From the NCBI GenBank assembly GCA_030536515.1, contig JAUNPV010000001.1:310001-374000 (forward strand): DNA of 64,000 nt, read 5' to 3'. The position numbers were made by a program, and so were the translations under genes. Each line of letters begins with the position of its first letter. Position 1 is the first letter of the stretch. This document shows, in pieces, positions 10,564-55,037 of this stretch. The stretch comes from Eubacteriales bacterium (GTDB lineage Bacteria; Bacillota; Clostridia; Oscillospirales; Oscillospiraceae). The notes below the pieces were generated by a model that was not told the DNA's origin, searched no databases, and saw only the letters and a program-made list of their open reading frames with translations.

Positions 10564-12183
<1,620 letters not shown>

Positions 12184-12502: not shown

Positions 12503-12507
12503 ACAAT

Positions 12508-13081: not shown

Positions 13082-13091
13082 CAGAATCAAC

Positions 13092-13122: not shown

Positions 13123-13127
13123 TAGAC

Positions 13128-13318: not shown

Positions 13319-13323
13319 CACTG

Positions 13324-14700: not shown

Positions 14701-14749
14701 AAATGATGCTCCTTTTTTCAAATATTGCGCTGTAAATACAGCAAAATGC

Positions 14750-34465: not shown

Positions 34466-34507
34466 CAAGCTCTATGGTTCCCATGGTCCCATAGAGCTTG
34501 TTTTCTT
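34466..34507. terminator. Terminator between CDF and RpiR genes
   Basis: A 12-bp perfect stem CAAGCTCTATGG / CCATAGAGCTTG (34466-34477 with 34489-34500), then TTTTCTTATT. It ends the CDF transcript and lies right at the stop of the convergent regulator. Confidence 0.88.
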
Positions 34508-35348
34508 ATTTGACCTTTTTCAGCTGGTTTCGTTCCAGGCAGGGGATGGATTGGGCGTAGTTGCGGCTGATGTAGGCGGTGAAGAGAATGTCAATCATAT
34601 TCAGCTGGGAGATGCGGGAGGACATGGCGCCGCTGCGGAAGGCCTCCTCCATGGCCACCACGTGGAGGTTGCAGTCGGCCAGCTGGGACAGCGGGGAGCT
34701 GTCAAAGCGGGTGATGGCGATGATGGGCGTGCCCCGGCGCTTCAGCTCCCGGGCGCAGCGGAGAATTTCCTCGGTGTGGCCGGAGTAGCTGATGATGATG
34801 GCGGCATCCTCCGGCCGTGCGTTTTTGGCGTGGAGGTACTGGGAGTGAATGTCCTCGGACAGGGCGCAGGGCTTGTCCGCCCGGAGAAATTTCAAATAGG
34901 CATCCTGGGCCACCAGAAAGGAGGCCCCGATTCCGAACAGCAGCACCGTTGCGCTGCCGCAGATGAGCTCCACGCTTCTGCGCAGAACCGCCTCCTCCAC
35001 CAGCCGCCGGGAGTTTTCCAGAGAGGTGATGTTGCGCAGGGTGACCCGGTCCACAATATCGGAAAGGGCGGTGTCCTGCTCGATGGGCTCGGTCTGGATA
35101 CCGGTCTCCTGCCGCCGGACGGCCATCTCATACAGCAGGGATTTCTGCATATCCCGGTAGCCCTCGAAGCCCAGCTTCCGGCACAGCCGCACAACGGTGG
35201 AGGGGGAGGAAAAGGCCTGCTGGGCCAGCTGGTGGATGCTGGACTGGGCAGCCTGCTGGGGATTTTCCAGGACAAAGCCCAGCACGCCCTGCTCGGCCAT
35301 GCTGGCCTGGGCCTGATACTGGGTCATCCGGACCAAAACGCTTTTCAT
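34506..35348 (-). CDS. RpiR/MurR-family regulator of the MurNAc locus
   Basis: A 280-residue regulator. MKSVLVRMTQYQ is chosen as start: GAGGAG lies about 10 bases upstream and a longer frame would run through the promoter. The N-terminal HTH_6 domain (about 1-80) has SSPSTVVRLCRKLGFEGYRDMQ. The C-terminal SIS domain (about 120-265) binds a phosphosugar, with LLFGIGAS and ISYSGHTEEILRC. It diverges from a ten-gene wall-sugar operon with murQ, so MurNAc-6-phosphate is the expected effector, as for E. coli MurR. Two similar GAAACRAARTTYC sequences in the intergenic region are candidate operators. Confidence 0.92.
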   Translation of the reverse strand: MKSVLVRMTQYQAQASMAEQGVLGFVLENPQQAAQSSIHQLAQQAFSSPSTVVRLCRKLGFEGYRDMQKSLLYEMAVRRQETGIQTEPIEQDTALSDIVDRVTLRNITSLENSRRLVEEAVLRRSVELICGSATVLLFGIGASFLVAQDAYLKFLRADKPCALSEDIHSQYLHAKNARPEDAAIIISYSGHTEEILRCARELKRRGTPIIAITRFDSSPLSQLADCNLHVVAMEEAFRSGAMSSRISQLNMIDILFTAYISRNYAQSIPCLERNQLKKVK

Positions 35349-35368
35349 CTTCTCTACGCTCCTCAAGT

Positions 35369-35381
35369 GAAATTTCGTTTC
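35369..35381 (-). promoter_or_regulatory. Candidate RpiR operator, site 1
   Basis: On the minus strand GAAACGAAATTTC, between the rpiR promoter and its ATG. It resembles site 2 at 35558-35570. Confidence 0.35.
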
Positions 35382-35414
35382 GCTGCGGTAAATGCCGGCG
35401 TTCCGCCTGCCTTT

Positions 35415-35443
35415 AGTATACCCCAGGCCGGGCCGGGACGCAA
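35415..35443 (-). promoter_or_regulatory. Candidate promoter of rpiR
   Basis: On the minus strand TTGCGT (35438-35443), 17-bp spacer, TATACT (35415-35420). Confidence 0.5.
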
Positions 35444-35557
35444 GGACTTTTTTGTTAGCTCCCACAAATAGAGAAATGGGGTTTTGGCTAATCGTACAAA
35501 TATGATTTTGATTTCCCCGGGGGAGATGAGGAAACTGTACAAGGATTTTCCGGGTGT

Positions 35558-35570
35558 GAAACAAAGTTCC
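35558..35570 (+). promoter_or_regulatory. Candidate RpiR operator, site 2
   Basis: GAAACAAAGTTCC, 17 bp before the -35 of the MurNAc operon. It shares GAAACRAARTTYC with site 1, about 190 bp away. Confidence 0.35.
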
Positions 35571-35587
35571 TTTTTATGCAGCTTTCA

Positions 35588-35616
35588 TTGACAAAAACAT
35601 TTCTCTGTGCTACCAT
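35588..35616 (+). promoter_or_regulatory. Promoter of MurNAc operon
   Basis: TTGACA (35588-35593), 17-bp spacer, TACCAT (35611-35616). Confidence 0.7.
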
Positions 35617-35686
35617 GAACCTATGCCTGCCGGAACGCTCCGATGCTGGCAAAATCGTTTCAGACGAACTATTGAAGGAGGATAAA

Positions 35687-37123
35687 ATGAAAAAGTTAAC
35701 TGCACTGCTGCTGGTGCTGGCCATGGTCCTTGCCATGTTTGCCGCCTGCGGCTCCAACGAGGCCCCCAAGACCACCGAGGCTCCCAAGGCTGCCGAGGAG
35801 CAGCCCACTGAGGCCCAGCCCACCGAGGAAAAGGCACCCGAGGAGGACACCATCACCGTCCTGATGCCCCCCGTCACCGGCGACTATATTGAGCTGCTGG
35901 ACGGCTGGATTGCCGACTTCCAGAAGGACTACCCCCACATCCAGGTGGAGGTCATCGCCACCTCCTGGGACGACCACTTCAACAAGCTGTCCACCATGGC
36001 CCTGGCCGGTGAGGCTCCGGACATTGCCGAAATTCCCGCCAAGAACGTGGGCGTGTATGTGGACATGGGCGTTGCCGTCAACATCGCCGACTACCTGCCT
36101 GCCGAGCGCCTGGCCGACTATGACCAGAACGCCCTGGACTACATGACCCTGGACAACACCGTCTACGGCCTGCCGCTGTATCTGACCATCCAGTCCCTGG
36201 GCGGCAACAAGGCCATGCTGGAAAACGCCGGTGTGAAGGTGGAGGAGGTTCAGAAGAACGGCTGGACCTACGAGCAGTTCCTGAAGGCCATTGAGGCCGG
36301 CACCACCGCCGATACCTTCGGCTTCGTGTTCGCCAACGCCGGTGTCTGCACCTCCGACATGGTGGACGTGTTCGGCTCCATCTCCGGTATCACCAGCAAC
36401 TTCACCGACGATCTGAAGTATGCCTACACCTCCGAGAATATGCTCAACCTGCTCAAGGCCGTGGAGACCATGGTTTCCTCCGGCTTCATGCCCGACTACA
36501 CCGTGGAGGCCGGCCAGCGTCTGGTCATGCTGCAGACCGGCAAGACCATGATTACCGGCAAGGCCATGCCTCTGTTCGAGAACAACGTGAAGAAGAACGT
36601 GGCCGCTATGGCTGACGGCTCCGCTGTGGAAGGCTCCATCGACATGGAGTATGTGTTCCTGCCCGTTCCCACCATGGAGGGTGTCACTGAGCACTGCTAC
36701 GGCCAGGTGGACGGCCTGATTGCCATGCGCAACAAGAACACCACCGACGAGCACCTGAAAAACGTGTGCCTGTTCCTGGATTATCTGACCTCCGGCGAGC
36801 GTGTCGCCAACACCGTCAACCAGCTGCTGCTGGCCTGCGTGTGCGAGTCCGGCCGCCAGGCCCAGGCCGGTGCTGATCTGGGCCAGTCCCCCAACAATGC
36901 CGCCGCCACCACCAGATGCATCGGCCTGGTCAAGGCACCTCCTGTGGGTGTCACCAGCGAGCAGGCTGCCAATGCCATGACCGTGATGAACGAGGTCATC
37001 GAGCCTAAGTTCCAGGCCCTGCTGGCCGGTGAGCTGACCGCTGAGAAGATGTACGACGAGGTCTGCTCCGCTGCCTTCGAACTGTTCGGCGAGGACGGCT
37101 GCGAGACCGGCTTCATTGGTTAA
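35687..37123 (+). CDS. ABC transporter substrate-binding lipoprotein of the MurNAc locus
   Basis: A 478-residue family 1 solute-binding protein. The start at MKKLTALLLVLAM follows GAAGGAGG; the longer upstream frame crosses the promoter. The lipobox is LAMFAACGS, followed by an acidic Pro/Glu/Thr linker (about residues 25-55), then the binding domains (DDTIT-VLMPPVTGDYIELL, GEAPDIAEIPAKN). It would capture wall-derived saccharides at the cell surface. A 14-bp hairpin after the gene (37144-37176) separates it from the permeases. Ligand specificity is inferred only from the downstream murQ, anmK, namZ and nagZ genes. Confidence 0.93.
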   Translation: MKKLTALLLVLAMVLAMFAACGSNEAPKTTEAPKAAEEQPTEAQPTEEKAPEEDTITVLMPPVTGDYIELLDGWIADFQKDYPHIQVEVIATSWDDHFNKLSTMALAGEAPDIAEIPAKNVGVYVDMGVAVNIADYLPAERLADYDQNALDYMTLDNTVYGLPLYLTIQSLGGNKAMLENAGVKVEEVQKNGWTYEQFLKAIEAGTTADTFGFVFANAGVCTSDMVDVFGSISGITSNFTDDLKYAYTSENMLNLLKAVETMVSSGFMPDYTVEAGQRLVMLQTGKTMITGKAMPLFENNVKKNVAAMADGSAVEGSIDMEYVFLPVPTMEGVTEHCYGQVDGLIAMRNKNTTDEHLKNVCLFLDYLTSGERVANTVNQLLLACVCESGRQAQAGADLGQSPNNAAATTRCIGLVKAPPVGVTSEQAANAMTVMNEVIEPKFQALLAGELTAEKMYDEVCSAAFELFGEDGCETGFIG

Positions 37124-37143
37124 TTGCACCGCTGAAATTTTCC

Positions 37144-37176
37144 GCAAGGACCTGCCTCCCGCAGGCAGGTCCTTGC
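37144..37176 (+). other. Hairpin between binding protein and permease genes
   Basis: A 14-bp perfect stem GCAAGGACCTGCCT / AGGCAGGTCCTTGC with a 5-nt loop and no T-run. Its position matches hairpins in the two other ABC operons of the window; probably mRNA stabilisation or partial termination. Confidence 0.65.
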
Positions 37177-37216
37177 CATGCTTATTGTATTACAAAAACA
37201 GGAGGAATGGTAAAAG

Positions 37217-38128
37217 ATGAAAAACCCCAAAGCCGCCACAATCAAAAAACGGCGCTTCTTCTTGACGAGTGAGGACCTGAACGGATACCTGTTTATTCTG
37301 GTGGCGCTGATCATTTTTTCGATTTTTACGATTTATCCTGTGATCTCCGCCATTATCACCAGCTTCCAGGATTACAAGCCCTTCGGCTCAGAGTGGGTCC
37401 GGCTTGAGAACTACGAAAAGGCCCTGTCCAGCAAGCTGTTCTGGAAGGCCATTAAAAACACCGCCGTCTACACCGCCGTGACGGTGCCCGGCTCTCTGGC
37501 CATTGCCTTTACCGTGGCCGTGATGATTATGCCCTTTTCCAGAAAGTCCCAGGCCCTGTTTAAGTCCCTGTACTATATTCCGGCGGTGGCCTCCGGCGTT
37601 GCGCTGAGCGTGGTCTGGCTGTGGCTGTACGATGCCTCGCCCTCGGGCCTGTTCAATCAGATTCTGACCTTTTTCCACATCCCCACCCAGAACTGGCTGG
37701 GCTCCAGCAAGACCGCCATGCTGTCCATGATTCTCATGTCCCTTTTGTCCGGCCAGGGCAGCAGCATCATCATTTACATTGCGGCCCTGCTGGGCATTGA
37801 CAATTCCTACTTTGAGGCCGCCGAGCTGGACGGCGCAACGTTTATGCAGAAGGTGGCCTATATCGTCCTGCCCCTGTGCAAGCCCACCACTCTGTTTCTG
37901 CTGGTCACCGGCATCATCAACTCCTTCCAGGTGTTTATGAACGCCTACATGATGACCGGCGGCGGCCCCGACAACAACACCACCATGATTGGACTTCTGA
38001 TTTTCAACAACGCATTTGAATACGGCAAATACGGCCTGGCCTGCGCCCAGGCGATTATGCTGGCCATTGTCATCGCTGCCCTGACTGCCATTCAGTTCAA
38101 GGTGGCCGGTGAAAACGTGGAATATTAA
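37217..38128 (+). CDS. ABC transporter permease, MalF type, MurNAc locus
   Basis: A 303-residue permease with six predicted spans, the first within LFILVALIIFSIFTIYPVIS. The EAA loop reads EAAELDGATFMQKVAYIVLP. GGAGG lies before the ATG. It pairs with the next product. Like the transporter at 18.4-21.6 kb, the operon lacks an ATPase gene. Confidence 0.94.
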   Translation: MKNPKAATIKKRRFFLTSEDLNGYLFILVALIIFSIFTIYPVISAIITSFQDYKPFGSEWVRLENYEKALSSKLFWKAIKNTAVYTAVTVPGSLAIAFTVAVMIMPFSRKSQALFKSLYYIPAVASGVALSVVWLWLYDASPSGLFNQILTFFHIPTQNWLGSSKTAMLSMILMSLLSGQGSSIIIYIAALLGIDNSYFEAAELDGATFMQKVAYIVLPLCKPTTLFLLVTGIINSFQVFMNAYMMTGGGPDNNTTMIGLLIFNNAFEYGKYGLACAQAIMLAIVIAALTAIQFKVAGENVEY

Positions 38129-38145
38129 GGAAGGGGGCGCTGACA

Positions 38146-39009
38146 ATGACAGGTTTATATTCCCAGCATCTGAAAAACCCGAAGCTGCGGTATCTGCGCA
38201 ACGGCATCATGGGCGTGGTTCTGTTCTTCTTTGCAGTGGTCGTGCTGTTCCCCCTGGTGTATATGCTGGCCTGGTCCTTTGGCCCCGCCAGAGAGATGGC
38301 GGCCAGCTCCTTCAGCATTTTCCCCAAGACCTGGTCCCTGGACTCCTATCGGTATTTCTTCAACTTCAGCCCCTACTCCGTCCGCTGGCTGTGGAACAGC
38401 TTTGTTGTGGCGGCGGCGACGGTGCTGGGCAATGTGGTGTTCGCCAGCATGGCAGGCTATGCCTTTGCCAAAATCCGGTTTAAGGGCAGGAGCTTCCTGT
38501 TTTTCCTGATTCTCATGGCCATGATGATTCCCTACCAGGTGACCCAGGTGCCGCTGTACATTCTGTTTGTCAACAAGTTCAAAATGACGGACACCTACGC
38601 CGCCCTGATTCTGCCCGGGTTCTGCACGGCCTACAACATTTTCCTGTCCAAGCAGTTTTTCTCCGGCATTCCCACCTCCCTCATCGAAAACGCCAAGGTG
38701 GAGGGAGCCGGGCAGCTGCGGATTTTTGGCAGCATCATTCTGCCGCTGTCCAAAACCGTGCTGGCGGTTATGGCCATCAATACCTTTATGGGCAGCTGGA
38801 ACACCTTCTTCTGGCCCTTCCTGGTGACCTCGGACCGGGCCATGTACACCATTCAGGTGGGCCTGAAAACCTTTAAGTTTGCCAACGGGACCATGCTCTC
38901 GCCGATGATGGCAGGTGCGGTGATTTCGGCGCTTCCCATGTTTGTGCTGTTCTTCTCTCTGCAAAAGTATTTCCTGGAGGGCGTCACCATTGGCGCAGTG
39001 AAGGGGTAA
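38146..39009 (+). CDS. ABC transporter permease, MalG type, MurNAc locus
   Basis: A 287-residue permease, six spans, starting MTGLYSQHLKNPKLRYL, with EAA motif ENAKVEGAGQLRIFGSIILP. It has a GAAGGGGG ribosome site and follows its partner by 17 bp. It precedes a GNAT gene by 4 bp, so transporter and enzymes are one transcript. Confidence 0.94.
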   Translation: MTGLYSQHLKNPKLRYLRNGIMGVVLFFFAVVVLFPLVYMLAWSFGPAREMAASSFSIFPKTWSLDSYRYFFNFSPYSVRWLWNSFVVAAATVLGNVVFASMAGYAFAKIRFKGRSFLFFLILMAMMIPYQVTQVPLYILFVNKFKMTDTYAALILPGFCTAYNIFLSKQFFSGIPTSLIENAKVEGAGQLRIFGSIILPLSKTVLAVMAINTFMGSWNTFFWPFLVTSDRAMYTIQVGLKTFKFANGTMLSPMMAGAVISALPMFVLFFSLQKYFLEGVTIGAVKG

Positions 39010-39013
39010 GCCC

Positions 39014-39976
39014 ATGATTCGACACTATGAACCAAGAGACTTTTCCGCCCTGCACCGGCTGTGGAACACCGCCGGTGTCCGCCAGGGGTATGTACCGGCC
39101 ACAGAGCCGGAGCTCGAAGCGCTTCTGACCGGCCACATCTGGTTTTCACAGCGGTTTGCCTTCGTGCTGGAGCAGGCGGGGGCCCTGGCGGGCTTTGTCT
39201 GCGGCTGCGCAGGTGACGAGCTGCCCCAGGGGCAGCGGCGGGGGTATTTCACGTGCCTTCTGCTGGACGAGCGGTGGGAGACCGAGGACAATGCCCGCCT
39301 GCTGCTGACGGCCCTGGAGGATGCCTTCCGCCGAGAAGGGAAAACCCAGCTTGCCTCCACCTTCTTTAACCCCATCCACCTGCCCTGGGTCATTCCCGGG
39401 ACCCAGGGCCACCAGCACAACAACTGCCCCGGCGTGGCCCGGGACCTGCCGCTGCACGGCTGGATGGTGGCCATGGGCTATCAGGTCTGTGCCGGGGAAT
39501 GCGCCATGTACCTGGATTTGAAGAACTTCCGCCTGCCCCGGTCCTATGAGGAAAAGCGCCTGCGGGCCGGGCAGGAGGGCTACAGCATTGCATGGTATGA
39601 CGACCGCCTCCACACCGGCCTGGATGACATGGTCCACGCCATGGGCAATCCCATGTGGAGCCAGGAGATTCCCGTGGCGGCCCGGACCGTCAATATGCTG
39701 GTGGCCCTTTACGGAAACCGGGTGGCGGGCTTTACCGGCCCCGTCTACCCGGAGCCTACGGGCCGGGGGTACTTTGCGGGAATCGCCGTGGCGAAGGAGC
39801 ATGAAAAGCACGGCCTGGGCACCCTGCTGTTTTGCCGCCTCTGTCAGGCGGAGCAGGAGGCCGGAAGCCGGTATATGTCCCTGTTCACCGGCGAGGACAA
39901 CCACGCCCAGAAAATCTATCTCAGCGCCGGATTTACAGTGCGGCGGATATTCTCAGTGATGACAAAGGAGCTGTGA
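39014..39976 (+). CDS. GNAT-family N-acetyltransferase
   Basis: A 320-residue protein with two GNAT-like halves. The N-terminal half starts MIRHYEPRDFSALHRLW. The C-terminal half has GYFAGIAVAKEHEKHGLGTLLFCRLCQ, where HGLGTLL is the acetyl-CoA pyrophosphate loop. About 4 bp separate it from the permease. Substrate unknown. In this setting it might acetylate glucosamine or a peptide stem after deacetylation by the next gene product; that is inference only. Confidence 0.88.
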   Translation: MIRHYEPRDFSALHRLWNTAGVRQGYVPATEPELEALLTGHIWFSQRFAFVLEQAGALAGFVCGCAGDELPQGQRRGYFTCLLLDERWETEDNARLLLTALEDAFRREGKTQLASTFFNPIHLPWVIPGTQGHQHNNCPGVARDLPLHGWMVAMGYQVCAGECAMYLDLKNFRLPRSYEEKRLRAGQEGYSIAWYDDRLHTGLDDMVHAMGNPMWSQEIPVAARTVNMLVALYGNRVAGFTGPVYPEPTGRGYFAGIAVAKEHEKHGLGTLLFCRLCQAEQEAGSRYMSLFTGEDNHAQKIYLSAGFTVRRIFSVMTKEL

Positions 39977-39982
39977 CCCACC

Positions 39983-40675
39983 ATGAAATACAATCGGATT
40001 TTAGCCATCGGCGGCCATATCGGCGATATGGAGCTTACCTGCGGCGGCGTGCTGGCCACCTGTGCGGCGGCGGGGGGACACATTGCGACGCTGGCCCTCA
40101 CCGGCGGCGAGAAGGGCAACCCGCCCGACCAGACTCCGGAGCAGTACCGGGTGCAGAAGGTCCAGGAGGCGGAGCGCTTTGCGCAAATGCTGGGCGGCGC
40201 CGCCTACGTGCTTCCCTACGCCGACGGCCTGCTGCCGGACGACGACACGGTCCGCTTCCAGGTCTGCGACATCATCCGCCGGGAAAAGCCGGACCTGATT
40301 GTGACCCATCACGGAAAAAGTATGCACAAGGACCATGCTGCCTGCCACCGGATTGTGAAGGACGCCTGGTTCTATGCAGCCATCGGCGGCTTCCGGCGGG
40401 AGCTTCCGCCCCACTTTGGCCAGCTGCGCTTTGCGGAAAACTGGGAGGATGCCCAGGATTTCCGGCCCTATCAGTATCTGGAGGTGTCCCAGGAGGGCTT
40501 CCGGCTGTGGCAGGAGGCAGTCCAGACCCACTGGTTCGTAACGGGCAGCAAGAGCTTCCCCTATTTTGAGTATTATTCCCATCTGAAGCGCCTGCGGGGC
40601 ATTGAGGCGAGAAAGACCTATGCGGAGGCGTTTATGACCCTGCCGGAGGATGTCCGGCTGGTGGAATCCCTGTGA
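39983..40675 (+). CDS. PIG-L/LmbE-family deacetylase
   Basis: A 230-residue zinc-dependent N-deacetylase type. The metal site pattern is visible as GGHIGDMELTCGG (His and Asp; the usual PHPDD varies) and HKDHAACHRIV (HxxH). The family removes acetyl groups from GlcNAc-type sugars. In the MurNAc locus it could deacetylate GlcNAc or MurNAc derivatives, and could compensate for the absence of a nagA gene nearby. AAAGGAG precedes the ATG, and it follows the GNAT gene by 6 bp. Confidence 0.9.
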   Translation: MKYNRILAIGGHIGDMELTCGGVLATCAAAGGHIATLALTGGEKGNPPDQTPEQYRVQKVQEAERFAQMLGGAAYVLPYADGLLPDDDTVRFQVCDIIRREKPDLIVTHHGKSMHKDHAACHRIVKDAWFYAAIGGFRRELPPHFGQLRFAENWEDAQDFRPYQYLEVSQEGFRLWQEAVQTHWFVTGSKSFPYFEYYSHLKRLRGIEARKTYAEAFMTLPEDVRLVESL

Positions 40676-40705
40676 GCTTATGCCGCCGGATTTGGAGGAA
40701 GTATC

Positions 40706-41599
40706 ATGGAATTGAACGCAATTAAAACGGAGGAGCGCAACCAGCGCTCTGCCCACATTGATGAGCTGTCCACCCTGGACATGGTTCGCCTGATCAACGA
40801 GGAGGATAAGCTGGTGGCTCTGGCGGTGGAGCGGGAGCTGCCGCAGATTGCCAGGGCTGTGGATGTCATTGCCGGGCAGCTGAAGGCCGGCGGACGGCTG
40901 ATTTATGCCGGCTGCGGCACCTCGGGCCGGTTAGGCGTGCTGGATGCTGTGGAGTGTCCGCCCACCTATTCCACCGACCCGGAGCAGGTGGTGGGCCTGA
41001 TTGCCGGCGGCTACGATGCCATGTTCCGGGCCGTGGAGGGTGCCGAGGACGATGAGCACCTGGGCCGGGCCGATTTGGAAAGCATCGGCTTTTGCGAAAA
41101 GGACGTGCTGGTGGGCATCGCCGCCTCCGGAAGGACCCCCTATGTGCTGGGGGCCATGGCCTATGCCAGAGGGCTCCATGCCCACGTCATTTCCGTCTGC
41201 TGCAGCCCCGATTCTCCCGTTCAGCGGGGCGCGGATATCGCCATCGTCCCCCAGCCCGGCCCTGAGGTGGTCACCGGCTCCACCCGGATGAAAAGCGGAA
41301 CCGCCCAGAAAATGGTGCTCAATATGCTCTCCACCGGTGCCATGATTCGCCTGGGCAAGGTCTACGGAAACCTGATGGTGGATGTGAAGCCCTCCAACGA
41401 AAAGCTGATTCAGCGGTGCATCCGCATTGTCTGCACCGTCACCGGCGCAGACCGGGAAGGGGCAGTGGCGGCCCTGGAGGCCTGCGGCTACCGGCCCAAG
41501 GTGGCAATCGTCATGCTGACCCGCCAGGTGGACGCAGAAAAGGCAAGGGAGCTTTTGGAGCAGGCGGACGACCGGGTGGCCGCCGCCATTGGAGGTTAA
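40706..41599 (+). CDS. murQ: N-acetylmuramic acid 6-phosphate etherase
   Basis: A 297-residue SIS-domain lyase. It removes D-lactate from MurNAc-6-P, giving GlcNAc-6-P. The family signature AGCGTSGRLGVLDAVECPPTY is visible near residues 70-90, with catalytic acids in VEGAEDDEHLG and a conserved VTGSTRMKSGTAQKM. Length matches E. coli MurQ (298). GGAGGA precedes the ATG. It is the key enzyme that fixes the function of the locus as MurNAc catabolism. Confidence 0.97.
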   Translation: MELNAIKTEERNQRSAHIDELSTLDMVRLINEEDKLVALAVERELPQIARAVDVIAGQLKAGGRLIYAGCGTSGRLGVLDAVECPPTYSTDPEQVVGLIAGGYDAMFRAVEGAEDDEHLGRADLESIGFCEKDVLVGIAASGRTPYVLGAMAYARGLHAHVISVCCSPDSPVQRGADIAIVPQPGPEVVTGSTRMKSGTAQKMVLNMLSTGAMIRLGKVYGNLMVDVKPSNEKLIQRCIRIVCTVTGADREGAVAALEACGYRPKVAIVMLTRQVDAEKARELLEQADDRVAAAIGG

Positions 41600-41601
41600 A
41601 G

Positions 41602-42345
41602 ATGGCTTATCTGCACTGTGAAATTTTCTCCCGGACCCTGGACATGGCCACCGCCTTCGTGGCCATATTGCCCGAGGAGGGGAGCCTTAAAGAGTGCCCG
41701 GTGGTGTATCTGCTCCACGGGCTGTCAGACAACTGCACCGGCTGGAGCCGCTATACGGCGGTGGAGCGCATCGCCCGGGAAAAGGGGGCGGCGGTGATTA
41801 TGCCGGAGGTCCAGCGGAGCTTTTATACGGATATGGCCCTGGGCCTTCCCTATTTTTCCTACATCACCCAGGAGCTGCCCCAGCTGTGCAGCCGGATGTT
41901 CGGACTTTCCGGGAAAAAAGAGGACAGCTTCATCATGGGGCTGTCCATGGGCGGCTATGGGGCCCTGAAATGCGCCTTGTCGTCGCCGGAGCGCTACGCC
42001 GGGTGCGCCAGCTTCTCCGCCGTGACGGACATTGCCGCACGGGTCAGAGGAAGCCAGGGAATGCGCCGCAGGGAGTTCCAGGCGATTTTCGGCCCGGCGC
42101 TGGAGGTCCCCGAAGGTGCCAGGCTGGATGCCCTGCTGCGCTGCCAGCAGGGCCGGGCCCTGCCCCGAATTCTGATGACCTGCGGAGAGCAGGACAGCCT
42201 GTTTGCGGAAAACCTCCGCTTTGCCGCAGAGCTTCAGGCCGCCGGTGCACAGCCGTCCTTCCACAGCTGGCCGGGCGACCACAACTGGGCCTTCTGGGAC
42301 CGGTCCGTCCAGCTGGCGTTTGACTTTTTTCTGGGGAAGCTCTAA
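41602..42345 (+). CDS. Alpha/beta-hydrolase esterase (EstA / D-esterase family)
   Basis: A 247-residue cytoplasmic esterase. The start at MAYLHCEIFSRTLDM is fixed by GGAGG overlapping the murQ stop. The nucleophile elbow is GLSMGGYGA, an oxyanion region is YLLHGLSDN, and the catalytic His is in PGDHNWAFWD. It resembles tributyrin esterase and S-formylglutathione hydrolase. In this operon a plausible job is removing O-acetyl groups from imported MurNAc (peptidoglycan is often O-acetylated), but nothing in the sequence proves it. Confidence 0.88.
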   Translation: MAYLHCEIFSRTLDMATAFVAILPEEGSLKECPVVYLLHGLSDNCTGWSRYTAVERIAREKGAAVIMPEVQRSFYTDMALGLPYFSYITQELPQLCSRMFGLSGKKEDSFIMGLSMGGYGALKCALSSPERYAGCASFSAVTDIAARVRGSQGMRRREFQAIFGPALEVPEGARLDALLRCQQGRALPRILMTCGEQDSLFAENLRFAAELQAAGAQPSFHSWPGDHNWAFWDRSVQLAFDFFLGKL

Positions 42346-42436
42346 GTCAATGGTCTGCGGCCGGACAGCGGGGTTTGCCAATTTCACCAGAGCGTCCCTA
42401 AAGCGGCCACAGTCCAGCCGAAAGGAGAATTTTGCC

Positions 42437-43615
42437 ATGAATCGTTGCAGTGAACCGGCGCAAAGCCGCCTGGTCATCGGGCTGATGTCCGGGACCTCTG
42501 CCGACGGAATCGATGCGGCTCTGACCCGGATTACCGGCTGCGGCCTGGAAACCCGGGTGGAGCAGCTGGATTTTTTGTTCACCCCCTTCCCGGAGGACCT
42601 GCGCAGCGCCATTTTGCGGATTGCCGGAGGCGGCCAGACCACCGCCGGGGAGCTGTGCAGGCTGAAAACCCTGCTGGGCATTCGCTATGCCGATGCCTGC
42701 GTGGCGCTGTGCCGCCATGCCGGGGTGCGTCCGGACCAGATTGGTCTGGTGGGCTGCCACGGCCAGACCCTCTGGCACATCCCCCGGCCCGAGGCGTATT
42801 TGGGCACAGAGCTGACCGGCACCCTCCAAATCGGCGAGGATGCCTGCATTGCCCAGCGCATGGGCTGCCCGGTGGTGGGGGACTTCCGGGTCCGGGACAT
42901 GGCCGCCGGCGGCCAGGGAGCGCCGCTGGTGCCCTACAGCGAATTTTTGATTTACCGCCGGCCGGATGAGACCGTGGCTCTGCAGAACATCGGCGGGATT
43001 GGCAATCTCACCATCCTGCCGGCAGGCGGGACCCTGGCGGATGTGGTGGCCTTTGACACCGGGCCGGGGAATATGGTCATGGATGCGCTGACCTGGAAAT
43101 TCACGGACGGCGCACAGCGCTACGACCGGGGCGGGGCTCTGGCTGCCTCGGCTCAGGTTTCCCAGAGGCTTCTTGACTGGATGCTGGACGACCCCTATCT
43201 GCAAAGGCGACCCCCAAAAACCACCGGAAGGGAGCGCTACGGGCCGGACTATGTCCGCACCCTGCTGGAGCAGGCCCAGGCCCTGGGGGTCAGTCCGGTG
43301 GATACCCTGGCCACCGCCACCTGCTTTACGGCCCGGACCATCGCCCTGGCCCTCCGGCAAAGCTGCCGCCAGCTGCCCCAGCGGCTGATTGTCGGCGGCG
43401 GCGGAGCCTGGAATGACACCCTGATGAGCCACCTGCGGGAGCTGCTGCCCGGCTGCCGGGTGATGACCAACGAGGCGCTGGGATACAGCAGCGATGCCAA
43501 GGAGGCGGTGGCCTTTGCGGTGCTGGCCAATGAGGCCTATGAGGGAATGTGCAACAACGTTCCCTCCGCCACCGGCGCAGAGCAGCCGGTGGTGATGGGA
43601 AAGCTCTCTCGATAA
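42437..43615 (+). CDS. anmK: Anhydro-N-acetylmuramic acid kinase
   Basis: A 392-residue ASKHA-fold kinase. It opens and phosphorylates 1,6-anhydroMurNAc to MurNAc-6-P, the MurQ substrate. Marks are GLMSGTSADGIDAAL (ATP loop, near residue 15), GLVGCHGQTLWH, NIGGIGNLT and DTGPGNMVMDA. AAAGGAG 9 bases before 42437 fixes the start; the preceding 90 bp hold nothing recognised. AnhydroMurNAc is made by lytic transglycosylases, so the kinase points to salvage of anhydro-muropeptides, own or foreign. Confidence 0.96.
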   Translation: MNRCSEPAQSRLVIGLMSGTSADGIDAALTRITGCGLETRVEQLDFLFTPFPEDLRSAILRIAGGGQTTAGELCRLKTLLGIRYADACVALCRHAGVRPDQIGLVGCHGQTLWHIPRPEAYLGTELTGTLQIGEDACIAQRMGCPVVGDFRVRDMAAGGQGAPLVPYSEFLIYRRPDETVALQNIGGIGNLTILPAGGTLADVVAFDTGPGNMVMDALTWKFTDGAQRYDRGGALAASAQVSQRLLDWMLDDPYLQRRPPKTTGRERYGPDYVRTLLEQAQALGVSPVDTLATATCFTARTIALALRQSCRQLPQRLIVGGGGAWNDTLMSHLRELLPGCRVMTNEALGYSSDAKEAVAFAVLANEAYEGMCNNVPSATGAEQPVVMGKLSR

Positions 43616-43630
43616 CGGAGGAATGTTGCC

Positions 43631-44779
43631 ATGATTTTTGGAGTGGATCAGGTGGAATCCAGCGGCCCACTGCTGGACGGCGGCCGGGTGGCGCTGCTGA
43701 CCTCCATCACAGGAAGAAGCAGCCGGAACGAATCCACCATTTCTGTTTTGCAGCGGCTGTGTAACCTAACGTGCCTGCTGGCCCCGGAGCACGGCGTTCG
43801 GGGCGACCGGGGTCCCGGCGTCGGGATGGAGGACTCGGTGGACCCCGCCACCGGCCTGCCGGTGTACAGCCTGTATACAAAAGACAGCAAGCATCTGTCC
43901 CAGCGGGTGCTGGATACCTTTGACATCCTCGTTTACGACATTCAGGATGTGGGCCTGCGGTTTTACACCTTTATTTCCAGCCTCTACAATGTGATGCAGG
44001 ACTGCGCCGCTTCGGGGAAGCGGCTGGTGGTGCTGGACCGGCCCAACCCCCTGGGCGGCGTGAAGGTGGAGGGAGGCCTGCTTCAGCGGCAGTTCAGGAG
44101 CTTCGTGGGCTGCTGTGAAATCCCCGTCCGGTACGGCCTGTCCATCGGCGAATTTGCGGGGATGGTCAACAGCCGGGAAAACCTGGGCTGCGACCTTCAA
44201 ATTGTCCCCTGCACCGGCTGGCACCGGGAGTCCTTCCCCCACTGGGGCAGAATCTGGCAGATGCCCAGCATGGCGCTGGCGACCTATCAGCAGACGCTGC
44301 TGTACGCCGGAACCTGCCTGTTTGAGGGCACGGCCCTGTCGGAGGGACGGGGGACCAGCGCTCCCTTCCGGATTATCGGCGGGCCGGAGGTGGATGGGGA
44401 GCGCATCAGCGGGGCGTTCAACCGCCTGGAGCTGCCGGGCGTCGCCGCCACCCCGGTGTACTTTAACCCCACCTGCTCCAAGCACTGCGGGACCCTCTGC
44501 GGCGGGCTGATGCTCCATGTGACCGATGAGCAGAGCCTTCAGCCGGTGCGCCTGGGGGTGGAGCTGCTGGATTTGTTCCAGAGGCTCTATCCGGACCAGT
44601 CCCGGTTCCTGCCTCCGGCGGACCCGGAGAAGCGGCCCTTTATCTCCCTGCTCACCGGCTGCGGCGATTTTGCGCCGGGCTGGGACAAGGAGGAGATTCT
44701 TGCCCGCTATGCGGCGGAAAGCCGGGCCTTTGCGGCGGAAAAGAAGGACTATCACCTGTATCAGGAGGACACACCATGA
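43631..44779 (+). CDS. namZ: Exo-beta-N-acetylmuramidase (DUF1343, NamZ type)
   Basis: A 382-residue protein. Hallmarks of the family are LLAPEHGVRGDRGPG, VYDIQDVGLRFYTF, LDRPNPLGG and the FEGTALSEGRGTSAPF segment. NamZ (family GH171) removes non-reducing-end MurNAc from MurNAc-GlcNAc disaccharides. The B. subtilis enzyme is secreted, but this copy has no signal peptide, so it should act inside the cell. GGAGG precedes the ATG. The stop overlaps the nagZ start by 4 bases. Confidence 0.93.
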   Translation: MIFGVDQVESSGPLLDGGRVALLTSITGRSSRNESTISVLQRLCNLTCLLAPEHGVRGDRGPGVGMEDSVDPATGLPVYSLYTKDSKHLSQRVLDTFDILVYDIQDVGLRFYTFISSLYNVMQDCAASGKRLVVLDRPNPLGGVKVEGGLLQRQFRSFVGCCEIPVRYGLSIGEFAGMVNSRENLGCDLQIVPCTGWHRESFPHWGRIWQMPSMALATYQQTLLYAGTCLFEGTALSEGRGTSAPFRIIGGPEVDGERISGAFNRLELPGVAATPVYFNPTCSKHCGTLCGGLMLHVTDEQSLQPVRLGVELLDLFQRLYPDQSRFLPPADPEKRPFISLLTGCGDFAPGWDKEEILARYAAESRAFAAEKKDYHLYQEDTP

Positions 44780-46314
44780 CATTGCGTGAAAAAATCGGCC
44801 AGCGGCTGGTAGGCGGCTTCCCGGGAAAGACCATGAGCCCGGAATTTATCCGCATGGTCCGGCAGTACAAAATTGCCAATGTGATATTGTTCCAGCACAA
44901 TGTGGAAAGCTGCTCCCAGCTGAAAAGACTCTGCGACGACATCCACCGGCTGGTGCGGCAGGAAACGGGCCACGGGGCCTTCATCACCATTGACCAGGAG
45001 GGCGGCGGCGTGACCCGGCTGCCGGGCGATGCGGTGAATGTGGCCGGGGCCATGGCCCTGGCAGCCACGGGAAAGCCGGAAAATGCCTATACCGCCGCCC
45101 GCATCACCGCAGGCGAGCTGCGGGCCCTGGGCATCAACTTCAACCTGGCGCCGGTGGCGGATGTGAACAGCAACCCCGACAATCCCATCATCGGCCTGCG
45201 AAGCTACGGCGATACCCCCCAGCAGGTGGAAGCCTACGCCCTGGAGGCCCTGCGGGGCTACCTGGACGGCGGGGTGCTGGCCTCGGCCAAGCACTTTCCC
45301 GGCCATGGGGACACGGCGCTGGACACCCATGTGAGCCTGCCGGTGATTGACAAATCCCTGGCGGAGCTGGAGCAGCTGGAGCTGCGGCCCTTCCGGGCGC
45401 TGATTGAGGCCGGATGTCCCGCCGTGATGACCACCCATATCCTGTTCCCCCAGCTGGAGCCGGACGGCGTGCCGGGCACCATGTCCCGCCGGATTATCAC
45501 CGGGCTTCTCAGGCAGCGGCTGGGCTTTGGGGGACTGGTGGTCAGCGATGATATGGAAATGGATGCCATCGGGAAGTATTTCGGCACCGCCCGGGGGGTG
45601 GCCGCCGCCATTGCCGCCGGGGTGGATTTGGTGTTTGTCAGCCACAGCGTGGAAAGATTAGAGGAATCCTTCCTGGAGGTGGAGAAAAGGGTGCTGGACG
45701 GCACCATTTCCATGGAGGAAATGGACGAGTCCGTGGCGCGGATTCTCCGCTTCCGGCAGCGCTGCTGCCTGCCGCCGGAGGGAACCGCCGGAAGCCCCCA
45801 GAGCTTCCGGCAGTCCAGAAAGCTCCGGACGGACTCCATCTGCCTGGTCCGGGGCCGGGTGCCGGCCATGGGCGAACGGCCTTTGTTCATCGGCTGCGCC
45901 GATTACCGGGCAGGGCTGGTTTCCAGCCGGGAGACCAACAGCACCACCTTTGCAGGCTTTATGAAGGCCCGCTTCGGGGGAGATGCCCTGGTGACGGCAA
46001 AGGACCCCACCGGGGAGGAGGTGGCCGCTGCGGCTGCCATGGCCGAAGGCCACAGCTCCATTTTTCTGAACACCTACAACGGTCATCTGTTCCCAGGCCA
46101 GCTGGCCCTGATGAAAGCCCTGGCGCAGCTGCACATTCCCATGGCCGTGACGGCCCTGCGAAATCCCTATGACCTGCGGTCCCTGCCCGAGGGCGTGTGC
46201 GGCCTGGCGGCCTGGGACTATTCCATGGAGACTTTGGAGTGCCTTCTTCCCATTCTGGCGGGAGAGGCGGAGGCCAGAGGACATCTTCCGGTGAGCTTAG
46301 GAGGCGGCGTGTGA
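44776..46314 (+). CDS. nagZ: Beta-N-acetylglucosaminidase, GH3 (NagZ type)
   Basis: A 512-residue GH3 enzyme that removes GlcNAc from GlcNAc-MurNAc. The (beta/alpha)8 domain covers about residues 1-330, with the signature KHFPGHGDTALDTH (catalytic His-Asp dyad) and the nucleophile Asp in VVSDDMEMDAIG. A second C-terminal domain (about 345-510) gives the two-domain form seen in Firmicutes. There is no signal peptide, unlike Bacillus NagZ, so it is cytoplasmic. Its ATG overlaps namZ, and its stop overlaps the GTG of the next kinase: three enzymes tightly coupled. Confidence 0.95.
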   Translation: MTLREKIGQRLVGGFPGKTMSPEFIRMVRQYKIANVILFQHNVESCSQLKRLCDDIHRLVRQETGHGAFITIDQEGGGVTRLPGDAVNVAGAMALAATGKPENAYTAARITAGELRALGINFNLAPVADVNSNPDNPIIGLRSYGDTPQQVEAYALEALRGYLDGGVLASAKHFPGHGDTALDTHVSLPVIDKSLAELEQLELRPFRALIEAGCPAVMTTHILFPQLEPDGVPGTMSRRIITGLLRQRLGFGGLVVSDDMEMDAIGKYFGTARGVAAAIAAGVDLVFVSHSVERLEESFLEVEKRVLDGTISMEEMDESVARILRFRQRCCLPPEGTAGSPQSFRQSRKLRTDSICLVRGRVPAMGERPLFIGCADYRAGLVSSRETNSTTFAGFMKARFGGDALVTAKDPTGEEVAAAAAMAEGHSSIFLNTYNGHLFPGQLALMKALAQLHIPMAVTALRNPYDLRSLPEGVCGLAAWDYSMETLECLLPILAGEAEARGHLPVSLGGGV

Positions 46315-47207
46315 AATTTGCAGCAGGAATTGACGGCGGCGGCACCAAAACCACGGTGGAGCTGCGAAATTTGGACGGCCAGGTCCTGGACCGCATCCAG
46401 CTTGGCCCCTTTAACCTCAACAGCATCGGGCCGGAGAGCTTTGCGGGGCTGCTGGGGACCATCACCGGCTGCCTGCGGGAGCACGGGACCTGCGTCAGCC
46501 TCTGCATCGGCGCCGCCGGGTCCAGCAATGCCCTGATGGGGCAGCTGGTGGAAAAGGCCATGCAGGAGGCAGGCCTTGACAAGTGGATGCTGGTTGGCGA
46601 CCAGGAGATTGCCCTGTGGGGAGCTTTGGAGGGGCGGCCGGGCTGCGCCCTTATCGCCGGCACCGGCTCCATCTGCTTTGGCCGGAACCGGGCGGGGGAG
46701 ACGGCCCGGGCCGGAGGCTGGGGGCACCTGATTGACGACGGCGGCAGCGGCTATGCCCTGGGGGCCGACGGTCTCCGGGCACTGGTTCGTGCCTGGGACG
46801 GAAGGGCGGAGGACACCCTGCTGACCCGGCTGGTGTTTGAACGGCTGAACCTCCACACGCCCCAGGCGCTGATTTCCTATGTCTACGGCGGAGATAAAAG
46901 CCGGGTGGCGGCCCTTGCGCCGCTGGTGGAGCAGGCCGCCGGAGCCGGGGACAGGGCAGCTGCCGAAATTCTCCGGAAAAATGCCCGGGAGCTGGCAGAG
47001 CTGGCGCTGGCCGTCACCGGCCGGCTGGGGCTGGAGCAGGGAGAGGTCGCTTTGCTGGGGGGCCTTCTCACCCACGACACCATCCTGCGCCGTGAGACCG
47101 TCGAAGCCTTGAAGCGCCTCTGCCCCGGCCTGACCCCGGTGCCCCCCAGCCGGGACGCCGCATCCGGCGCAGCTATGATGGCCCTGAGACAGGCCCGTGA
47201 CAATTAA
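46311..47207 (+). CDS. BadF/BcrA-type amino-sugar kinase (GlcNAc/MurNAc kinase candidate)
   Basis: A 298-residue ASKHA kinase with GTG start at 46311, overlapping the nagZ stop; GGAGG lies just upstream. It has GIDGGGTKTTVELRN (phosphate-1 loop), AGTGSICFGRN (phosphate-2/adenosine) and GGWGHLIDDGGSGYALG. This family includes N-acetylglucosamine kinase and MurK of Clostridium, which phosphorylates both MurNAc and GlcNAc. As the last gene of the locus it would trap the sugars released by NamZ and NagZ. A terminator hairpin follows directly. Confidence 0.9.
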   Translation: MKFAAGIDGGGTKTTVELRNLDGQVLDRIQLGPFNLNSIGPESFAGLLGTITGCLREHGTCVSLCIGAAGSSNALMGQLVEKAMQEAGLDKWMLVGDQEIALWGALEGRPGCALIAGTGSICFGRNRAGETARAGGWGHLIDDGGSGYALGADGLRALVRAWDGRAEDTLLTRLVFERLNLHTPQALISYVYGGDKSRVAALAPLVEQAAGAGDRAAAEILRKNARELAELALAVTGRLGLEQGEVALLGGLLTHDTILRRETVEALKRLCPGLTPVPPSRDAASGAAMMALRQARDN

Positions 47208-47215: not shown

Positions 47216-47262
47216 ATCAGGACTGCCGGTTTCACTGGCAGTCCTGATTTGTCGTTCTTTTC
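47216..47262. terminator. Convergent terminator of MurNAc operon and surface-protein gene
   Basis: A 12-bp stem ATCAGGACTGCC / GGCAGTCCTGAT (47216-47227 with 47237-47248), followed by TTGTCGTTCTTTTC. The stop codon of the minus-strand surface gene lies at 47232-47234, inside the loop, so its last codons are in the stem. Confidence 0.75.
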
Positions 47263-52087: not shown

Positions 52088-55037
52088 GGTGATAATCCGG
52101 TTGAACGATTTATACAAATTAGTGCTTGACAGCCAAAATTTTTTCGTTTACTATTTCCATATAGAAGCGTGGAAGGTGTGCCCTTTCACGCTTTGAATTT
52201 TATAGAAAGAAGGAATTTGGATGAAAAAGAAGCTGTTTGCGGTTTTGCTGGCGGTGTTCCTGGCGGCGGGGGTGGTGCCTTTGCGGGTGCTGGGGGCTGA
52301 GGTTGTGACGGTGGGCTTTCAGCTCGCTAACGGGGTCTGGTCGAATGACGATTATTATCAAGAGCGCACCTTCGAGGCGGGGCACGTTTTGTCGGTGGAG
52401 GACATTCCATGCGATATGTCTCCCAATGACGGATATGGCGGCGGATATTGGAAGGATGACCCACTGGGGGATGTTCCTTCGGATGGAACCGTCTACCGCT
52501 TCGTCTATCAGCGGCTGCTGGAGCTGACCTTTGATGCCAACGGCGGCCAGTGGGGCGAGGGCGAGACAGACCGGACGGTTCAGGTCCTGTCGGGGACGGT
52601 CTGCGGGGAATGGCCGGAGGACCCGGTTCGGGCGGGCTACAGGTTTCTGGACTGGTGCCAGAATCCCTACGGCTATGGCAGTCCCGCCGACGAGGACTAC
52701 ACCATTGAGGAAAATCTTATTCTTTACGCCCGGTGGAAGGAAAACTGTCGGCTGACTTTCCAGCTGAACGGAGGTTCTGGCGAGCTACCGGCGATGGAGC
52801 TGTCGGGGGGTCTGGTGGAGGACCTGCCGGAGCCGCCGCCCCGGGAGGGCTACGAATTCCACAGCTGGAACACAGCGCCCGATGGCACCGGCACGGACCT
52901 GGAGACCGGGATGGAGCTACAGGAACATACAACTGCTTACGCCCAGTGGAGGCGTATTTTTATTTTGTATTTTGACGGAAACAGCGAGATTTCCGGGGAA
53001 ACGCTTGCATTTACAGCGGAAAACAGCGGGATTTCCGCCCATGACTTTACCGTCCCTAGCCTGGAACGGCCCGGCCATACCCTGCTTGGCTGGAACACCC
53101 AGCCCGACGGCAGCGGGGAAACGGTGGCTGCTGGCAGTCTCTACACCGTGGACAGCTCCAACAGCCCTGCCACCCTCTACGCCATCTGGCAGCGAGACTC
53201 CTGCCATGTGACCTTTGGCGAAACCGCTGAAATCCGGGCCTGCCTCTGGGGCGACTCCCTCCCGGCGGATGGATTTCCGGCCCTTTCTCTGGACGAAACC
53301 GGCTGCCGGGTTATAGACGGTGCTCTTTTCCGCTTCGGCGGCTGGCTGACGGAGGACGGCCAGGTTTTCACGGCGGACACCCCCGTCACCGAAAGCATCA
53401 CCCTTCACCCCCTGTGGATTCCCCAGGCGGAGGTGTTGTTCGAAATCGAGGGCGGCGTCTGGGCGGAAAACGGTCTGAGCAGCTGCACGGTGACCCTGGA
53501 CGAGGGCGGGGCGCTGGAAGGGCTGCTTCCCACTCCGGTGACCGATGAGCGTCACAAGCCCACCGGCCAATGGTCCCCCAGGCCTGGGACCGCCGCCAAC
53601 GGGGCGGTGTTCACCTTCACCTGCGACCGGCGGGAGGCACTTCAAATCACCTTCGACACCGGAGAGCCGCCGGTGGAGGTGCTGGAGGGCCAGACCTGCC
53701 CCAAGCTGCCCACCCCCGCCCGGGAGGGCTTCCGGTTTGACGGGTGGTACACCGCCAAAACCGGCGGGGAAAAGTTTGACGAAAGCCTTCCAATTCTGAA
53801 AAACACCCCTCTTTACGCCCGCTGGGTGCAGCTTTTCACCCTGACCTATGACCCCACCGGCGGCGAAAGCCCGCCGCCGCCACAGCAGGTGGAGGCCGGG
53901 GAGGACGCCATGTTCACCCTTTCCCACCAGGTCCCAACCAGGCCCGGGTGGGTCTTTTTAGGCTGGGCAGAAAGCCCGGATGGGCCCCTTCCCCAGCTTC
54001 ACGGCGGCGACTCCTGCCGGGCCGATGGGGATTTGACCCTGTACGCTCTGTGGAAAAGGGACCTGGTGCTGGTGACGGTGGTGTTCCTGGACCGGGAGGC
54101 TGAGGCCGCCCGGCTGAGCCTGGTGTCCGGCCAGTGTCCCGGCGGGGCCATGGCGGAGGCCCCGGCCCGACCGGGGTACGACTTCCTGGGCTGGAACACC
54201 AGCCGGGACGGGACCGGCGAGGCCCTGACGGCGGACTCCGTGGTTGAATCGGACACCACGGTCTACGCCTGCTGGGCGAAAATTCCAACGGTGACCCTCA
54301 CCTTCCTGGACCGGGGACAGGCGGTGGACTGGTTCATCCTGGCTGTTGGCGAATCCCCGGCGGACCAGCTCCCCGCCGCCCCGGTCCGGAAGGGCTACCT
54401 GTTTCTGGGCTGGCAGGACGAAAACGGGGTCCTGCTGGCCGCTGAAACGTCTGTGACCCAGGATATGACCCTCTGCGCCGCCTGGGAGAAAATCACCCGT
54501 GGGACCGTCACCTTCCTGGACGGCGAAGGCGAGCCCCGGGAAATCACCCTGGACCTGGGGGCAAAGCTGGGAGACAACCTGCCCCCGGACCCCACCCGTC
54601 CCGGCTTCCGCTTCCTGGGCTGGAACACCCGGGAGGACGGCACCGGCTCAAAGCTCACCCGGTCCACAGTCCTCCGGGAGGACATGACCGTTTGGGCCCA
54701 GTGGGAGGAAATCCAGTACGTGACCCTAACCTTCCACGACCCCTTTGAGGGCAGCTTCGCCCTGACCCTGGAGCAAAACACCAAGCCCGGCGACATCTTC
54801 CCGCCCAACCCCACCCATCCGGGCTACAGCTTCCGCGGCTGGTACACCGGAGAAAACGGAACCGGCCAAAAGGTGACGAAATCCACAAAAATCGGGGAAG
54901 ACACTAACCTTTACGCCTGCTGGAAGCGCAAAGACCCCACCAACGCCCGCACCGGCGACCTCTCCAACATCCACCTCTGGACCATAACCCTGGCCGTGAC
55001 AGCCATGAGCCTGACGGGGATTGTCTGGAAAAAGCGA
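52088..55037. repeat. Right arm of large inverted repeat
   Basis: Inverted counterpart of 47265-50204; homology begins at GTGATAATCCG. The spacer between the arms is about 1.9 kb and holds the YesL-like and AEC genes. Confidence 0.85.
52126..52154 (+). promoter_or_regulatory. Promoter of surface protein copy 2
   Basis: TTGACA (52126-52131), 17-bp spacer, TACTAT (52149-52154). A 12-bp hairpin (about 52164-52192, one G-T pair) begins at the predicted transcript start and may stabilise the mRNA 5' end. Confidence 0.8.

Follow-up and report, generated by a model that had tools for sequence, protein, structure and literature searches.

How fragments of the peptidoglycan glycan enter a bacterial cell, and on which side of the membrane they are taken apart, is the question raised by a gene cluster in a 64,000-nucleotide stretch, here termed the window, from an Eubacteriales bacterium of the Oscillospiraceae (GenBank assembly GCA_030536515.1, contig JAUNPV010000001.1, positions 310,001 to 374,000). 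At 34506-47207 of the window a divergent MurR/RpiR gene on the minus strand is accompanied by eleven structural genes on the plus strand (35687-47207). A first-pass annotation of the letters had described a ten-gene operon under an RpiR regulator; family searches bear out its gene identities and positions, and the count is corrected to eleven structural genes plus RpiR. The best reading of the locus, to which we assign a probability of about 0.75, is that unphosphorylated wall disaccharides are imported by an ATP-binding cassette (ABC) system and cleaved in the cytosol.

Enzymes and Importer of the Operon

MurQ, the N-acetylmuramic acid (MurNAc) 6-phosphate etherase (40706-41599), and AnmK, the anhydroMurNAc kinase (42437-43615; PF03702, E 3e-106), both score above the cut-offs of their equivalog models (TIGR00274, 399 bits against 302, and NF007148, 463 bits against 387). 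The NamZ protein (43631-44779), a member of glycoside hydrolase (GH) family 171, has both expected domains (PF07075 NamZ_N, E 3e-68; PF20732 NamZ_C, E 8e-40) and is predicted to be an exo-N-acetylmuramidase. The adjoining NagZ-type GH3 N-acetylglucosaminidase (44776-46314) passes PF00933 (E 8e-79) and matches the solved structure 6k5j (E 4e-100), with a score of 194.6 bits against a cut-off of 207 for the NCBIfam NagZ model. The last gene (46311-47207; PF01869, E 3e-33) encodes a kinase whose best solved relative is the MurNAc/N-acetylglucosamine (GlcNAc) kinase 8zo3 (E 5e-49, residues 1-292 of 298), and the protein is predicted to phosphorylate MurNAc as a MurK-type enzyme. Next to murQ, a PF00756 protein (41602-42345; E 2e-24) with the esterase 4rgy as its closest solved relative (E 3e-52) is possibly a sugar O-acetyl esterase. 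NagA and NagB are encoded on C26 and C16 of the same genome, and the window itself holds a second NagB-like protein (23781-24494, plus strand; 139 bits, below the NagB cut-off of 237).

The importer genes comprise a solute-binding lipoprotein (35687-37123; SBP_bac_1, E 5e-17, with a lipoprotein-like N terminus), permease A (37217-38128; BPD_transp_1, E 1e-11, UgpA-like under the cut-off) and permease B (38146-39009; BPD_transp_1, E 9e-19). The family searches place this set with the CUT1 importers, the assignment to CUT1 over another class of sugar ABC importers being based on UgpA/GlcT/MalF-type matches, all under cut-off. The operon has no ATPase gene, as the first-pass annotation had noted, and an OB_MalK search of the genome finds one MalK-type ATPase, of the UgpC subfamily and over cut-off, far from the operon. 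A shared ATPase of the MalK/MsmX type probably energizes the importer. With this ATPase to borrow and with NagA and NagB present in the genome, the operon can be energized and can drain into glycolysis. A PF02378 search of the genome, which is 98% complete, does not find the EIIBC protein MurP of the phosphotransferase system (PTS), and the single EIIC protein that it returns belongs to the GlcNAc type (537 bits, cut-off 553).

Of the operon products, the binding protein alone appears to be exported. The best 10-residue hydrophobicity near the N terminus, a heuristic used here in place of SignalP with a threshold of 2.2, reaches 3.29 in the binding protein and does not exceed 2.03 in any of the eight enzymes, NamZ and NagZ among them, in agreement with the earlier statement that no enzyme has a signal peptide.

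NamZ Loci in Other Genomes

In the family a NamZ search matches 6 of 200 genomes, with only the window genome and G184 (67% identity) being close, and none of three sampled genomes of the same genus; it also matches 27 of 295 genomes of the order and 84 of 398 of the phylum. Around the matches 120 stretches were fetched; left out were the remaining family matches (G089, G112, G160 and G165), short fragments, weak matches, G673:C32, G618, G667, G717, two of G691, G223 and G344, and the NamZ gene is cut in the stretches of G289 and of one G508 NamZ. A contig scan with a single NamZ protein gave no match. With a 14-row NamZ profile, all rows being CUT1- or murQ-linked, the scan confirmed at least 584 of at least 590 candidates, the best 80 of which were kept as named loci, a set biased toward the gene set of the window (the module). 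In G160, G089 and G112, members of the same family, frames of 1271, 1347 and 3047 amino acids (L007-L009, L011-L018) contain two or more NamZ-like stretches with roughly 27-47% identity and represent multi-domain NamZ-like proteins.

Removal of genes at least 97% identical reduces 203 NamZ genes to 196, and 155 of these, the window's included, are flanked on each side by 5 kb or more, or have a CUT1 pair. A NamZ gene is counted as CUT1-linked if a permease pair lies no more than 8 kb away on its own strand; for other partners the limit is 10.5 kb and both strands count. Of the 103 NamZ genes called cytosolic 48 are CUT1-linked, as are 5 of the 52 called secreted (Fisher 2e-6, without correction for kinship). 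MurK is near 30/48 cytosolic NamZ with CUT1, 10/55 cytosolic NamZ without CUT1 and 0/52 secreted NamZ; in the same order the fractions are 25/48, 5/55 and 0/52 for AnmK, 22/48, 5/55 and 0/52 for PIG-L, 36/48, 14/55 and 8/52 for MurQ, and 24/48, 14/55 and 23/52 for NagZ. The neighboring NagZ is itself called cytosolic in 24/24, 10/14 and 5/23 cases, respectively. When the named loci are removed, MurK is found at 6/16, 8/42 and 0/34 loci. The location caller makes errors, with the Bacillaceae-type NamZ of L221, L240, L259 and L271 called cytosolic beside a secreted NagZ, and a laxer earlier version gave somewhat different counts (Fisher 0.16 for the set without named loci).

Proposed Pathway and Alternatives

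The operon would be an RpiR-controlled catabolic set for peptidoglycan glycan fragments, in which disaccharides enter through the lipoprotein and two permeases and are not phosphorylated on the way. The imported molecules would be MurNAc-GlcNAc, a product of endo-glucosaminidases, together with GlcNAc-MurNAc or GlcNAc-anhydroMurNAc, which muramidases and lytic transglycosylases produce. Inside the cell NamZ would free non-reducing MurNAc and NagZ non-reducing GlcNAc, MurK would phosphorylate both sugars, AnmK would turn anhydroMurNAc into MurNAc 6-phosphate, and MurQ would strip the lactate to give GlcNAc 6-phosphate, which would reach glycolysis through the NagA and NagB encoded elsewhere. 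Free-amine sugars would be re-acetylated by the GNAT protein so that hydrolases and kinases accept them, the PIG-L protein may act beforehand on a modified sugar, at its C2 nitrogen, and the esterase may strip a 6-O-acetyl group, which would block the 6-OH phosphorylated by MurK.

Import by a PTS yields sugar phosphates, whereas ABC import does not. An unphosphorylated sugar needs a kinase, and this fits the occurrence of MurK near cytosolic NamZ and near none of the 52 secreted ones. Cytosolic NamZ and NagZ in turn need disaccharides with non-reducing MurNAc or GlcNAc inside the cell, and the presence of AnmK points to anhydro ends from lytic transglycosylases.

Five loci pair CUT1 permeases with a NamZ that has a signal peptide and would free MurNAc outside, as expected if the importer carries only the monosaccharides MurNAc, anhydroMurNAc and GlcNAc, with NamZ and NagZ serving minor or self-made fragments. 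We regard this as unlikely because cytosolic exo-glycosidases are of little purpose unless disaccharides enter, and NagZ is cytosolic in every one of the cytosolic CUT1-linked loci that carry it. Import of peptide-bearing muropeptides, with the peptides removed inside, is very unlikely. Muropeptides are normal products of wall turnover, and a family whose tested member (L080) belongs to the beta-lactamase family occurs near 5 of the 48 CUT1 loci; however, none of the operon genes matches an amidase or peptidase family best; the esterase cross-matches Peptidase_S9 with 25.8 bits (cut-off 22.6) against 87.5 bits for the Esterase family.

Several observations weigh against import of disaccharides and their cleavage in the cytosol. 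The closest solved relative of the binding protein is YesO (E 8e-13, about 125 residues), and the binding proteins of the module diverge, with 68% identity in L077, the locus of G184, and 21-58% in 14 others aligned. CUT1 permeases accompany five secreted NamZ, 55 cytosolic NamZ have no CUT1 pair up to 8 kb away on their own strand, and the contrast is weaker without the named loci (CUT1 at 16/58 cytosolic against 5/34 secreted NamZ). On a FastTree phylogeny of the 155 NamZ proteins, with 12 changes of location and 21 of CUT1 linkage, the association between the two is not significant; when the tree is taken into account, comparisons of NamZ location with CUT1 and with MurK, and of CUT1 with MurK and with PIG-L, have too few differing pairs and none is significant. 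The pattern linking location, CUT1 and MurK is present in the data, and it may reflect shared ancestry. The earlier proposal that wall pieces are imported and dismantled inside is partly supported, anatomy and comparison favoring ABC import with cytosolic NamZ, NagZ, MurK and AnmK.

The source of the disaccharides is a separate matter. SpoIVA is found in 78 of 80 carriers tested, marking them as spore-formers, and germination is generally known to free wall fragments, which would suit recycling of the cell's own wall in place of feeding on the walls of other cells. SpoIVA is also present in 190 of 219 phylum genomes and so does not discriminate, and the rarity of the operon in its family (NamZ with at least 67% identity in 2/200 genomes) is in line with a catabolic set that is optional. 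Own-wall recycling is possible on this evidence but doubtful.

GNAT and PIG-L Proteins

The gene at 39014-39976 encodes a tandem GNAT protein (Acetyltransf_1). A profile of 14 module GNAT proteins matches 5kf1, 5kga and 5kgh over nearly the full length (8-297 to 6-292, E 6e-21), and the window sequence alone as query finds no solved relative at E 0.01. A further match of the profile is to the acetyltransferase part of 4zm6 (E 3e-7), a chain whose GH3 part is matched by the window NagZ (E 2e-79). We take 4zm6 to be the Rhizomucor miehei fusion of an acetyltransferase and a GH3 enzyme, and the 5KF1 GlmA to be the same protein as the Clostridium acetobutylicum enzyme. 5KF1 is named a glucosamine N-acetyltransferase, GlmA (PMC10936415), an enzyme of this kind is ascribed to C. 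acetobutylicum (PMC4680927), and the R. miehei fusion requires acetylation before deacetylated chitobiose is cut (PMC4680927). As 4zm6 joins GNAT-like and GH3 parts, with acetylation preceding cutting, the window GNAT most likely restores the acetyl group of amino sugars before NagZ acts. The protein is predicted to transfer acetyl groups to glucosamine or glucosaminides in the manner of GlmA, and its earlier description as a plain GNAT appears under-stated.

The adjoining gene (39983-40675) encodes a PIG-L-fold protein (PF02585, E 3e-22) with the motif HIGD in place of HxDD, the first Asp of which is presumably the general base in PIG-L deacetylases. Residue identity two positions after the first His in 30 module members, near-duplicates included, is Gly in 26, Ala in 2, Ser in 1 and Val in 1, and never Asp. 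The first-pass annotation named the protein a deacetylase, an activity that is not to be assumed with the usual base missing in 30/30. His-12, Asp-15 and His-118, which we take to be the likely metal ligands of the fold, are conserved in 18/18 module proteins. In the phylum search 11 strong matches (above 260 bits) fall outside the window genome, in 10 genomes that all have NamZ as well; 10 of these 11 matches were fetched, all of which lack the base Asp, and 8 adjoin a GNAT gene. The weaker matches fetched have HPDD in 17 of 19 cases and HAMD and HSLD in the remaining two. Compared with these 17 controls, which were picked by HPDD and thus have the Asp by selection, the module proteins have a new invariant Glu-155 and a Ser in place of Asp at position 113. 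Candidates for the residue facing the metal are Glu-43, Glu-155 and Asp-156. Among the 155 loci all 27 with PIG-L also carry GNAT, GNAT occurs alone in 3, and for 26 of 30 PIG-L genes the GNAT gene is no more than 300 bp away. The closest solved relatives include deacetylases and the hydratase 5cgz, which has the motif HSAD and also lacks the Asp.

An ordinary N-deacetylase acting on GlcNAc or MurNAc is a real possibility, if at less than even odds: the fold, the retained metal ligands and the relationship to chitobiose and BshB deacetylases favor it, whereas the base position differs from the HPDD usual in the weaker matches, and the neighboring acetyltransferase would create a futile cycle on the same sugar. 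The Asp-less hydratase, by analogy only, motivates another reading, in which the PIG-L protein would open a non-N-acetyl amide at the C2 nitrogen of a muramoyl sugar and the GlmA-like GNAT would then acetylate the amine thus exposed, giving unusual wall sugars access to the MurK-MurQ path. Candidate substrates would be the muramic-delta-lactam of the spore cortex and N-glycolyl-muramate. Such editing by the PIG-L/GNAT pair would be a step not yet described, and we rate it as distinctly improbable. Sporulation was considered as a clue to PIG-L function and set aside: all 15 PIG-L-bearing genomes of the 80 tested have SpoIVA, but so does the bulk of the phylum sample, and the PIG-L/GNAT pair also occurs in Spirochaetales-titled L234 and L241 and Chloroflexi-titled L276.

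Distribution of the Module

The operon recurs in other genera and is, as judged from gene content, a recurrent module; the uniqueness implied by the first-pass annotation is over-stated, with near-identical operons in a family relative, Pseudoflavonifractor, Paenibacillus, Ruminiclostridium and Velocimicrobium. G184 has the window gene order with the esterase missing. The esterase was rejected as a constant part of the module because it is missing from L077 and, of the 80 named loci, no more than two have a weak relative, L222 (125 bits) and L263 (43 bits). MurQ, CUT1 genes, GNAT, PIG-L, NamZ and MurK occur together in L199 (Pseudoflavonifractor sp. MSJ-30), L200, L201, L203 and L205-L207 (Paenibacillus), L204 (Ruminiclostridium cellobioparum subsp. 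termitidis) and L208 (Velocimicrobium porci). RpiR accompanies them in all of these loci but L207, where it was not found and where the contig starts at that point; AnmK and NagZ are present in some, the AnmK gene being reversed in L199. A second layout, in Paenibacillus L211, L213, L215-L217, L223, L224 and L256 and in L080, is mostly without PIG-L and GNAT, though both occur in L213. It includes an additional gene family, and the one member tested, between permease B and NamZ in L080, is a MalK-type ATPase. This family is found in 10 of the 48 CUT1 loci, 8 of them named Paenibacillus. A 44.7-kb plasmid of Paenibacillus guangzhouensis (L330) carries the operon less NagZ and the esterase, and nagA and nagB lie at a distance of about 7 kb. 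The plasmid copy, together with the rarity of the operon in its own family, suggests exchange between genomes. Foreign origin by base composition was rejected, the G+C content of the operon (0.624 against 0.598 for the window) not being telling.

Related gene sets are seen elsewhere. A Subdoligranulum variabile plasmid record (L333, about 2930-13000) has CUT1-type permeases, MurQ, RpiR, AnmK, NamZ, NagZ and MurK, and PIG-L was not found there. A record titled Bacillus subtilis DE0224 (L226, 4.5-12 kb) has a cytosolic NamZ with GNAT, PIG-L, RpiR and ABC permeases and differs from the secreted type. One family is common to the CUT1 loci L203, L204, L208 and L220, its tested member (L208) being a GH4 glycosidase, and an annotated 6-phospho-beta-glucosidase gene flanks the operon on L330. 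The haloarchaeal plasmids L331 (Halorussus halophilus, 6772-14763) and L332 (Haladaptatus pallidirubidus, 3358-13137) encode NamZ and NagZ, and AnmK is present on one, whereas the other has a CUT1 importer and a UgpC ATPase nearby on the opposite strand; scavenging of bacterial walls by archaea is possible.

Sequence Elements Framing the Operon

The MurR/RpiR-family regulator (34506-35348, minus strand) has HTH_6 (E 6e-16) and SIS (E 3e-26) domains, and its start, picked by eye, is probably at 35348. A promoter-like site, TTGACA-17-TACCAT, lies at 35588-35616 on the plus strand and is a consensus match only. A stem-loop of 14 pairs (37144-37176, plus strand) separates the binding-protein and permease A genes, and a terminator-like stem-loop of 15 pairs (47216-47248, plus strand) follows the last gene. 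These three elements frame one operon, in which intergenic spacing ranges from a 4-bp overlap, in two gene pairs, to 93 bp. The chance level of such sites is considerable, with 7 promoter-like sites found against 2.8 expected and 15 terminator-like sites against 11.7. No palindrome common to the window, L077 and L199 was found as an RpiR operator. Two large Listeria-Bacteroides (InlB-type) repeat proteins are encoded near the downstream side of the operon (47232-50072, minus strand, and 52221-55043, plus strand).

Comparison with Known Systems

The C. acetobutylicum MurK is reportedly a MurNAc/GlcNAc kinase and GlmA a tandem-GNAT glucosamine N-acetyltransferase; this GlmA (5KF1) is homologous to the window GNAT, and we know of no NamZ, PIG-L or CUT1 partners of murK and glmA there. 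YejBEF-YepA is a different ABC importer that replaces AmpG in Rhizobiales and is not known to be of the CUT1 class. In Bacillus subtilis namZ (ybbC) presumably lies with the murQRP-amiE-nagZ cluster, and in the Bacillaceae nagZ-namZ pairs surveyed the enzymes mostly have signal peptides, with no MurK nearby.

Agrobacterium tumefaciens YejBEF-YepA resembles the window in that peptidoglycan is recycled via an ABC transporter (PMC9790009). The B. subtilis cluster likewise unites MurQ, an RpiR-type regulator and NagZ but differs in its MurP PTS (PMC5061867). The Escherichia coli AmpG-NagZ-AnmK-MurQ pathway has cytosolic NagZ, AnmK and MurQ, as in the window, but uses the AmpG permease or the MurP PTS, and NamZ, MurK and a GlmA-like GNAT are not part of the pathway as described (PMC5061867). 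Staphylococcus aureus MurP/MupG imports MurNAc-GlcNAc intact by the PTS (PMC6262408), and this uptake makes MurNAc-GlcNAc a natural uptake substrate. Intact import was thus already known, which the first-pass annotation under-stated. The MupG-MurQ-MurP-MurR system shares with the window intact import, cleavage inside and the MurQ end, but its PTS phosphorylates on import, MupG cuts the 6-phosphate, and its operon is without an ABC importer, MurK, NamZ and NagZ (PMC6262408).

Among the matches listed in searches of part of the open-access literature, none gives an account of the present gene set, which does not prove that none has been published. Piecemeal annotation, as on the P. guangzhouensis plasmid where the genes are labeled murQ, sugar ABC, anhydroMurNAc kinase, GNAT, PIG-L, DUF1343 and BadF, makes such a route easy to overlook. 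The conserved PIG-L/GNAT pair provides a concrete target for the handling of modified wall sugars. The parts of the window operon are known from these systems, and what appears new is their combination with a CUT1 importer, together with one possible new enzyme activity. If the proposed pathway is true, ABC import with kinases and cleavage inside the cell would be a further route of glycan use in Gram-positive bacteria, besides PTS import and secreted hydrolases.

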